From Chaenocephalus aceratus (lineage: Eukaryota > Chordata > Actinopteri > Perciformes > Channichthyidae): a stretch of DNA of 64,000 nucleotides. Of the stretch, positions 52,979 to 63,212 are shown in pieces. Position 1 is the first letter of the stretch; every line of letters starts with the position of its first letter. The notes beneath the pieces were generated by a model. It was not told the DNA's origin. It searched no databases and saw only the letters and a program-made list of their open reading frames with translations. Location: positions 27,755,736 to 27,819,735 of the forward strand of contig CM043801.1 in NCBI GenBank assembly GCA_023974075.1, written 5' to 3'. Made by a program: the position numbers and the translations under genes.

Positions 52979-53567
52979 ATGGATGCAATACTCAACACAC
53001 TTAAGCAGTTCCGACTGGAGTCTTACTGCAACCAGTTGGTCCAGCTGGGCATGAAGGAAACAAGAGATTTCCTGGACAGTGTTACAGATGAAGATCTGGA
53101 CAACATGGGTGAGATGAACTTCAACTTGAAATCCAAGACTGTCAAACATGCAGCTGACACTCGGTAGAAAAAACAGTTACACCTACATCTAGTGTTTCTA
53201 AGCCTGGAGATGTAATTCACTTGCATTTTCATTCAAAGTTGTATCTGATTTAAGCATTCATTGTTGACACTGTTTGACGTTTCTAATGACTCATTATACT
53301 TTCAATATCATTCACACTCAAATAAATAAGTAAAAACAAGTCATTTTAAGTTAAATGTTGTTATAAAAATGATATACTTAATTAATCCCGGTAACTTTTT
53401 CACAGGTTTGAGTCATGTTGAGAAGAACCGCTTTTCAGCAATGAAAACCTCCATTCAAAGAGCCAAGGAGCACCAGGTTCAAACTGTGACGCCTGTACAA
53501 AAATCCATGGAGTCGTTCTATCTGAAGTACACATTCCCCAAATGTCGCAAACCAAAAACAATTAAAG
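52979..53567 (+). CDS. SAM-domain exons of the E2/U-box gene
   Basis: Exon 1 (52979-53108) and exon 2 (53406-53567) encode MDAILNTLKQFRLESYCNQL, followed by LGMKETRDFLDSVTDEDLDN and LSHVEKNRFSAMKTSIQ. The W/F-L-x-x-Y...L...G-V...L-L...D-L...G-I...R-x-K-I type spacing is that of a sterile alpha motif: five short helices ending in the RxKIL-like helix. SAM domains usually mediate homo- or hetero-oligomerisation, here presumably to cluster the enzyme. Exon 2 also starts a basic linker (YTFPKCRKPKTIK). Confidence 0.8.
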
Positions 53568-62500: not shown

Positions 62501-63212
62501 CTGGGAGTTTAGGTCAGAAAAGGTGTTCATTAACTTTAAAATATCACGTATTTGACTGATGCTGAGTTTCTTTTTTACTTTTGAAGCATTTTGGCTGAAG
62601 AATTCCTGACGAGCCGGGAGACCTATCAACGAGAAGCTGAGAAACACACAGAGAAAACTGCAGGAAAGTCCATGGATGACATGGACAAAGTAAATGGGCA
62701 CCCACATATTTACAGTGGATACGTTTTTTACATTTTGACCTTAACATATGTTTTTTATTTGTTCACTTTTTATTAAAAGAACCTGGTGGAGCCCGTTCCA
62801 CAGTTCATACCCCAACATCTGATCTGTCCACTCACCAAGAAGATGTTTGTTGATCCTGTGAAAACGGCGTATGGCACAGTGTATGAACGCAAGGCCATTG
62901 AAGAACATCTGAAGAAGTACGTTAACTTTCCCTGTCTGGTAAATAACTGATGGCTGTTTAGGAAACAGCTAGAAATCCCCTTCATTTGATCTATTTAAAC
63001 TAGGGCTGTCAGCCTTCAGACGTCAACGCTTGTAATTAATCCTGAAACCTTGAACGCCTTGAAAATGTTTTTTTACTTTTGATTTATTTTGCAGACACCA
63101 TTACGATCCGTTGGCGGGCCCAGGAAATGAGCTTGAAATGAACAACATTAGAGCGGACCAGGACATGAAGAAAAGGGTGATGGATCATCGCTCTCGGCAA
63201 ATTAGGTTCTAG
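52979..63212 (+). CDS. SAM-UBL-VWA-E2(UBC)-U-box fusion protein; two frame breaks as sequenced
   Basis: The 24 coding exons are 52979-53108, 53406-53567, 53652-53855, 54764-54915, 55285-55387, 55462-55672, 55871-56001, 56228-56371, 56582-56717, 57196-57346, 57448-57590, 59428-59539, 59786-59849, 59953-60156, 60252-60397, 60564-60682, 60971-61092, 61188-61285, 61415-61551, 61733-61857, 61999-62144, 62587-62689, 62780-62916 and 63095-63212. They sum to 3298 bases; adding the two apparently missing bases gives exactly 1100 codons. Approximate domains by residue: SAM 1-65, ubiquitin-like 217-290, VWA 612-790, E2 860-985 with candidate catalytic Cys945, U-box 1025-1090. The predicted role is cytosolic ubiquitin transfer combining carrier and ligase modules. 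I know no named vertebrate gene with this order. The start is the ATG that opens the SAM domain. Breaks lie near 55607 and 55914, so the copy is either damaged or carries sequence errors. Confidence 0.85.
53652..54915 (+). CDS. Exons 3-4 of the E2/U-box gene: unassigned N-terminal module
   Basis: Exons 53652-53855 and 54764-54915 join through a split Trp codon (T|GG) to give FFNTWSLKDRHIENG. A CDHC pair (KCDHCTDM) suggests a possible metal site, but no partner cysteines are obvious. TVEDLMMRICHLESVG ... VCLYTIDGMPLTDD has the spacing of a beta-grasp fold and might be another degenerate ubiquitin-like unit. The intron between them holds a TRIM-family fragment on the opposite strand. Confidence 0.65.
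54118..54720 (-). pseudogene. finTRIM/TRIM-like fragment (B-box and coiled coil) inside an intron
   Basis: Read on the minus strand, the segment encodes ACKSCLMCLASYCDKHLQ (B-box 1 end), [20 protein letters not shown] (B-box 2) and a long Gln/Glu-rich coiled coil (ERTERQRELEGSRQNIQ onward to RSQLKSEVTR). This is the middle of fish TRIM proteins. A frame break separates the first B-box cysteines (ACDVCTGRK) from the rest. The CxxH start of B-box 2 is missing. No RING or B30.2 is attached, and homology stops after KSEVTR. It is a decayed fragment of an E3 ligase inserted antisense in intron 3 of the E2/U-box gene. Confidence 0.85.
55285..56001 (+). CDS. Ubiquitin-like domain exons and adjacent helical region, containing both frame breaks
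   Basis: Exons 55285-55387, 55462-55672 and 55871-56001. FELKVKLASDTITNLILKLA followed by GGDTLESCGISEGSTVNFSL parallels ubiquitin's SDTIENVKAKI and TLSDYNIQKESTLHLVL, so this is a ubiquitin-like (UBL) fold. In exon 6 the frame runs to YDETFFIYDF and then meets a stop. One base further along, SIPQTQKGISVFLSSVYAV continues to a good donor (GTT|GTAAGT). In exon 7 QLQKLIA is followed by TAA, while the shifted frame gives RKLTGCHPLAQSLHQLFC. Each exon is one base short of the length that splice phases require. Confidence 0.75.
56228..57590 (+). CDS. Central linker exons of the E2/U-box gene
   Basis: Exons 56228-56371, 56582-56717, 57196-57346 and 57448-57590 are open in consistent phase. They encode a mostly helical stretch (IAVVEGLYLLFRELLPQP ... 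LDVFENSLYCWAHLLSEAK), a loop rich in Gly/Pro, and a segment ending FKINNEKTFGSMVQELKS ... LKDLGLCEGRLVLLSE. That last segment again looks like a compact beta-grasp unit, but is not assignable by eye. Confidence 0.7.
58182..59174 (+). mobile_element. Internally deleted hAT transposon keeping BED-like and dimerisation-region fragments
   Basis: The ends are TAGGGATGGGAA and TTCCCATCCCTA, with an exact 8-bp target duplication TTGCAAGC at 58174-58181 and 59175-59182. Inside, the plus strand encodes a piece like RKRSNVWKYF (start of a BED zinc finger). It is soon followed by LAIPATSVPAERVFSTAG, the hallmark of the hAT C-terminal dimerisation region. The transposase core between them is deleted. The element lies in the intron between the 57448-57590 and 59428-59539 exons. 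Confidence 0.88.
59786..60682 (+). CDS. VWA-domain exons of the E2/U-box gene
   Basis: Exons 59786-59849, 59953-60156, 60252-60397 and 60564-60682. The metal-ion-dependent adhesion site is complete: DTSSS (Asp619, Ser621, Ser623 in the reconstructed numbering), the Thr of SGCTLLYDA (Thr695) and the Asp of LTDGND (Asp727). This is an intracellular type VWA resembling those in copine or proteasome/ligase-associated proteins, likely a Mg2+-dependent protein-binding module. The preceding exon 59428-59539 gives the linker. RTGDHGDGRIFVTTR leads into the first beta-strand. Confidence 0.85.
60971..62144 (+). CDS. Ubiquitin-conjugating (E2, UBC fold) exons
   Basis: Exons 60971-61092 and 61188-61285 encode the linker. 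Exons 61415-61551, 61733-61857 and 61999-62144 encode the UBC fold. Helix 1 is the Lys/Glu-rich KRVLEELKSLHCNPHPFFRV. The core strand pattern MFWRILMQGPPDTPYKKGVF and DYPAKPPLVRFVTP is canonical. The usual HPN motif is HCN (935-937), keeping His and the catalytic Asn. The candidate acceptor cysteine is in GRICHNIF (Cys945), at the right distance. HITMREILEAVYGLLISPEP then matches the standard C-terminal helix region (LLxxPxPxDPL). Confidence 0.88.
62587..63212 (+). CDS. U-box (E3) C-terminal exons
   Basis: Exons 62587-62689, 62780-62916 and 63095-63212. After a Glu/Lys helix (SRETYQREAEKHTEKTAGK) the sequence IPQHLICPLTKKMFVDPVKT, AYGTVYERKAIEEHLKK and DPLAGPGNELEMNNIRADQD follows the U-box plan. 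That plan is P..F.CPI....M.DPV....G.TYER.AI..WL, then DP..... L...L.PN..L...I. The protein ends MDHRSRQIRF with TAG at 63210-63212. U-boxes bind E2 enzymes, so this one is placed to work with the E2 in the same chain or with a partner. Confidence 0.85.

Follow-up and report, generated by a model that had tools for sequence, protein, structure and literature searches.

Whether one vertebrate protein can carry both a ubiquitin-conjugating enzyme (E2) and a ubiquitin ligase (E3) module, and whether the two would then work together, is the question raised by a gene of the icefish Chaenocephalus aceratus, located in a stretch of 64,000 nucleotides of contig CM043801.1 (hereafter the window). The gene lies on the plus strand at 52979-63212, comprises 24 exons with GT-AG borders at every intron and encodes SAM, ubiquitin-like, VWA, E2 and C-terminal U-box modules. 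An earlier note on this DNA had read these as one gene with the modules in that order, and the relatives agree: SAM, two ubiquitin-like segments, a first U-box-like domain (U-box 1), VWA, E2 and U-box follow each other in 103 of the best 120 of 236 family proteins, including the icefish database proteins P0001 and P0002. The architecture is real and old, and databases contain it only as prediction.

One chain with VWA, E2 and U-box modules

The 236 family proteins were obtained from 7993 scored candidates in the main search, and the best 120 of them, two of which are the icefish's own, were used for the counts; further searches yielded 79 of 266 and 187 of 7994 candidates (best 120 of the 187). 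The taxonomic range given here is that of the best 120 of 236 and the best 120 of 187 and makes no claim of absence from tetrapods. Segments were called by similarity to P0007, and the count of ordered modules says nothing on the identity of U-box 1. VWA, E2 and U-box were found together in 119 of the best 120 of 236, and in 168 of 265 proteins. Outside the teleosts, family proteins were found in gar (P0147, P0206), Amia (P0235), coelacanth (P0236), lamprey (P0237) and the hemichordate Saccoglossus (P0243), with further relatives P0244, P0245, P0247, P0254, P0255 and P0261, not all of which have the C-terminal U-box. A VWA-E2 tree rooted on P0244 placed hemichordate, lamprey, coelacanth, gar and teleosts in the expected order, P0245 excepted. 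The earlier note knew of no characterised vertebrate protein with this order; among the papers listed in our literature search there was no study on the function of the family, but databases contain more than 100 such predicted proteins.

In the protein derived from the window, profile searches for the modules at the centre of the claim detected E2 (UQ_con, 6.4e-36), U-box (7.8e-13), VWA_2 (4.1e-10) and VWA (1.1e-06) above the Pfam cut-offs. The metal site of the VWA domain is complete (DxSxS, Thr and Asp present), the UBC fold has its catalytic Cys and its closest PDB match is UBE2E1 (8.1e-29), and the C-terminal U-box stands ~20 residues behind the E2. The two N-terminal modules proposed earlier were found below the cut-offs in the window and above them in some of the relatives. 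SAM_TNK (E 0.008 in the window) exceeded the cut-off in two of the six relatives scanned, P0052 and P0088, and the region forms five helices in the predicted model m603cfb425e6f of P0005. The ubiquitin profile PF00240 (E 0.045 in the window) exceeded it over the same region in five of the six (P0067, P0090, P0088, P0086, P0106); in a separate scan, P0118 gave neither match at E 0.1. A first ubiquitin-like fold is predicted as strand-strand-helix-strand-strand at ~83-163 of P0005 (predicted local distance difference test, pLDDT, ~90).

The earlier domain list had overlooked the second ubiquitin-like fold and a U-box-like domain before the VWA. Comparison of U-box 1 with U-box 2 by hhalign gave a probability of 70 with divergent rows and 25 with fish rows only, the U-box 1 of the window can be aligned with those of P0244 and P0255, and profile A7 of U-box 1 reached PDB U-boxes at 2.4e-7. 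The U-box 1 slice of P0244 matched Pfam U-box below the cut-off (0.015), and two fish slices and the hemichordate slice gave no Pfam match to U-box. As the vertebrate-only control profile A8, built without P0244, P0255 and the hemichordate row, lost all U-box matches, we term this domain degenerate. For exons 10-12, secondary structure alone pointed to a possible third ubiquitin-like fold, which we do not claim. The NCBIfam search returned weak matches, mostly to VWA proteins, and in the structure search VWA matches filled the list for the 1070-residue model and E2 matches that for the P0244 model. The full-length model is poor over the E2 (pLDDT <50 at 832-957), and the relative placement of domains is therefore not readable from it.

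The earlier exon coordinates were kept except at exon 3, with exons 6 and 7 starting at 55487 and 55871. Exon 3 had been started at 53652, which was ruled out in favour of 53718 because the relatives run straight on with the sequence DMDPA; the longer form is present in the toothfish model P0003.

Table 1. Features of the gene and its surroundings in the window
Feature	Exons	Positions	Strand	Basis or remark
SAM-like domain and linker	1-2	52979-53108, 53406-53567	+	SAM_TNK match; five-helix model of P0005
First ubiquitin-like fold	3-4	53718-53855, 54764-54915	+	P0005 model; exon 3 start set by relatives
Second ubiquitin-like fold (most of)	5-6	55285-55387, 55487-55672	+	PF00240 in relatives; both exons shifted by one base against relatives; exon 6 start from relatives
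Helical region	7-8	55871-56001, 56228-56371	+	Helices 279-383 in P0005 model; frame of exon 7 shifted by one base, exon start from relatives
Degenerate U-box-like domain (U-box 1)	9-10	56582-56717, 57196-57346	+	hhalign against U-box 2; alignment with P0244, P0255
Beta-rich linker region, no fold assigned	11-12	57448-57590, 59428-59539	+	Strands in predicted models
VWA domain	13-17	59786..61092	+	Metal-site Asp codon 59962-59964
VWA-E2 linker	18	61188-61285	+	Exon join
E2 (UBC) domain	19-22	61415..62689	+	UQ_con; catalytic Cys codon 62035-62037
C-terminal U-box and stop	23-24	62780-62916, 63095-63212	+	U-box 7.8e-13
Antisense TRIM B-box/coiled-coil fragment		54118-54717	-	Within intron 3 and separate from the gene; TRIM_CC 2.5e-12, zf-B_box 2.4e-07
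Long interspersed element (LINE)-like stretch		32565-36275	+	RVT_1 2.7e-41 for 33504-36272; three same-frame open reading frames split by two stop codons
VWC2L-like gene exon		29872-30324	-	VWC2L_1st 1.9e-13

Frame breaks and possible mixed history of the icefish copy

The exons had been described as phase-consistent, and their number, borders and span stood, while exons 5, 6 and 7 proved to be out of register. When joined at the limits fixed by relatives and with no base altered, the exons give 3207 nt with stops at codons 291, 293 and 295, after which the frame is open to the final stop at 1069. A tblastn search with the Gymnodraco protein P0005 located one frame change in each of the three exons; the shifts sum to three bases, so the correct frame is restored behind exon 7, and the other 21 exons are in frame once this part is passed. 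The database proteins KUCAC02_018930 (P0001) and KUCAC02_037146 (P0002) show 99% identity to the protein of exons 7-24 over 97% of the query. These public icefish models have 998 residues against ~1070 expected, skip part of the broken stretch and read another part out of frame. The copy in the window is probably a broken, decaying member of the family, or else mis-assembled.

That the icefish copy is intact and the breaks are consensus errors is quite possible, as FALCON-Unzip was used to assemble the published C. aceratus genome from PacBio Sequel data, and the available part of the report mentions no short-read polishing (PMC7307600); the return of the remaining exons to frame also fits such errors. 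However, P0002, which this annotation places on another contig, 36 kb long, contains the identical out-of-frame peptide in the part of exons 5-6, and the three breaks are clustered in adjoining exons. In addition, the models P0166 and P0174, from two toothfishes and seemingly of this copy, are fragmentary as well, and P0001 sits on a long branch in the tree of the N-terminal half. We lean towards decay, as a leaning only; RNA-seq from 12 icefish tissues exists (PMC7307600).

Model P0003 of the toothfish Dissostichus mawsoni opens with an E2-U-box tail from an upstream copy, joined directly to the SAM start of a second copy. This suggests a tandem pair in toothfish, of which the window copy apparently corresponds to the upstream member. 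Over 103 residues the window copy matched the upstream tail in P0003 at 100 positions, the own tail of P0003 at 95 and P0005 at 92. The halves of the gene appear to differ in their history. P0001 and P0005 share 182/185 residues in VWA and 141/145 in E2 but only 55/72 in U-box 1, where P0003 and P0005 are the same at 72/72. Likewise, the VWA-E2 tree grouped P0001 with P0003 and P0005 (support 0.92), whereas the tree of the N-terminal half placed P0001 outside P0003, P0004 and P0005 (support of 0.724 for those three). The conflict between the trees would be explained if the VWA-E2 half had undergone gene conversion or if the N-terminal half had evolved faster.

Proposed ubiquitin transfer within or between chains

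We consider it likely that the locus is one copy from an ancient family of eukaryotes, and that intact members of this family would act as cytosolic one-chain ubiquitin transferases, a mechanism proposed because of the domain content. E1 would charge the E2 with ubiquitin, and the U-box of the same or a neighbouring chain would close E2~ubiquitin so that transfer can follow. Substrate or ubiquitin machinery may be bound by the ubiquitin-like folds and by the VWA, which is TFIIH/Rpn10-like, while SAM-driven oligomers could let E2 and U-box meet within or between chains. The self-contained transfer machine envisaged in the earlier note is a plausible inference from these domains. Across an E2 alignment of 250 rows, the catalytic Cys was kept in 234/234 and the Asn of the HPN motif in 233/233 ungapped rows, the residues of the VWA metal site hardly vary, and the positions of the C-terminal U-box stay canonical across members.

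Against this proposal stand the three frame changes, the failure of profile A8 and the low pLDDT over the E2 described above, along with several residues of the E2 itself. Positions were read from the reference row 7xed_A and named after UBE2D2, in which we take F62, P95 and A96 to be E3 contacts. The equivalent of F62 is F in 2/239 and V in 195/239 ungapped rows, that of P95 is P in 4/231 and A in 209/231, and that of D87 is N in 201/235; at the equivalent of A96, H is found in 148/233. Since the usual E3-contact residues are replaced, cis cooperation of E2 and U-box is unproven, and the replaced positions may signify either a private interface with the own U-box or evidence against such cooperation.

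On the latter side, the E2 and the U-box might share a chain without acting on each other, the U-box taking a free E2 such as UBE2D or UBE2N, while the E2 of the chain itself has another partner or carries another ubiquitin-like modifier. The replacement of the F62, P95 and A96 equivalents in nearly all members beside a canonical U-box speaks for this arrangement, which we nevertheless regard as rather doubtful, because the E2-U-box pair with its spacing of 18-24 residues is kept in 163/168 proteins, the pair is also present in the distant relatives P0157, P0243 and P0244, and the catalytic residues of the E2 are invariant in ungapped rows. A loss of catalysis, with the E2 fold retained for a role as scaffold or ubiquitin sensor, would suit the atypical neighbours of the E2 Cys (Leu to His in 231/235 and Asp to Asn in 201/235 ungapped rows) and is quite improbable given the unbroken conservation of Cys and Asn. 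The least probable reading takes SAM-VWA and E2-U-box for separate genes or transcripts that were wrongly joined, as the short E2-U-box proteins among database models might suggest. It was rejected on the co-occurrence of VWA, E2 and U-box and on the full-length or near-full-length uninterrupted open reading frames of P0027 (1080 residues, 3415-base contig), P0070 (4660-base contig) and P0078 (4084-base contig, without ~24 N-terminal residues). As the icefish exons are spread over ~10 kb, these frames are probably transcripts, and P0027 looks like a single, spliced one.

If the intact members work as one-chain transferases, they would be natural E2-U-box fusions comparable to the E2-RING fusions engineered by crystallographers (8v0d), and would make the control of E2~ubiquitin visible where carrier and ligase cannot part.

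A role in fish immunity is weakly suggested. In the gas gland of infected silver eels, the transcript of a 'probable bifunctional e2 e3 enzyme r795' was at 0.18-fold and was listed under immune defence beside cxcl10, cxcl11 and gbp5, which were likewise lowered (PMC5560681). The tandem copies and the TRIM-like RING ends of some relatives are compatible with an immune role and no proof of it. A TRIM-like RING precedes the SAM in 8 of the best 120 of 236 (P0018, P0026, P0030, P0044, P0052, P0056, P0057, P0060), from jacks, swordfish, flatfishes and one sea bass, and P0052 adds a weak B-box-like match; RING and U-box would then share one E2-bearing protein.

Viral, protist and animal comparisons

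Names of the type 'bifunctional E2/E3 enzyme R795' are attached to the fish models P0050, P0060, P0066, P0166 and P0238. The borrowed name points to a mimivirus protein, R795, which joins an E2 and an E3 module in one chain as the fish protein does, whereas the latter adds SAM, ubiquitin-like folds, VWA and the degenerate U-box. The available part of PMC11354881 contains neither the word VWA nor mimivirus.

A Foldseek search of viral models with the 692-residue model of P0244 placed A0A1V0SEK3 of Hokovirus HKV1 first (E 4.8e-37, 690 columns including gaps, 21% identity), the next viral match being at 9.2e-11. As the alignment runs over the length of the P0244 model, the same domain order is suggested for A0A1V0SEK3. 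This protein, named 'E2 ubiquitin-conjugating enzyme', is longer (1329 residues), and the relative placement of its domains is unmatched (root-mean-square deviation 30, TMq 0.49). Two weaker matches, E3T4W8 and R4TII5, aligned over 672 and 820 columns including gaps with TMq of 0.19 and 0.23. Of these three proteins, all from giant viruses with protist hosts, A0A1V0SEK3 was the sole convincing match to the U-box/VWA/E2/U-box core, and gene exchange between host and virus is possible. Four scans of viral contigs recovered no family member, and L001 from one of these scans is an ordinary stand-alone E2.

Among eukaryotes, a U-box with VWA was described in Mb_UBOXa of Monosiga, with relatives in Naegleria, Trimastix and Spironucleus, and the gene was called absent from animals (Marin 2010, PMC3087547). 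Mb_UBOXa and the icefish family are alike in U-box and VWA, by description only, and differ in that the available part of that account mentions no E2 (PMC3087547). If orthologous, a family present in fishes, lamprey, coelacanth, a hemichordate and perhaps a giant virus would revise the published absence from animals (PMC3087547). A wider scenario, tentative as a whole, would be that of an ancient eukaryotic system in which a single chain bears the ubiquitin thioester and has a U-box-type module on either side of its VWA-E2 core, which fishes, lamprey and coelacanth inherited from the deuterostome ancestor, which is shared with a giant virus, and which teleosts recruited to fast-evolving tandem defence genes with the E2 rewired to its own U-box.

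The icefish E2 has the UBC fold, catalytic Cys and HPN-type Asn in common with UBE2D/UBE2E, which are among its closest PDB sequences, but is embedded in a protein of ~1070 residues and altered at the E3-contact and C+1/C+2 positions. UBE2O and BIRC6 are large proteins that each unite E2 with E3 activity, and neither is known to have a U-box. A Pfam scan of two window pieces found no BIR domain, in contrast to BIRC6, and no WD40, which sets the protein with its E2 and VWA apart from WDSUB1 (WD40-SAM-U-box), with which it shares SAM and U-box in one chain (PMC3087547).

Some models extend the chain further. In P0217 of Gadus chalcogrammus, VWA, E2 and U-box are followed in one chain by an OTU deubiquitinase domain plus a second U-box, and the model may represent fused neighbour copies. 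The models P0041, P0175 and P0250 are fused to a THEM6-like thioesterase, which suggests THEM6 as a neighbour of the gene in some fishes.
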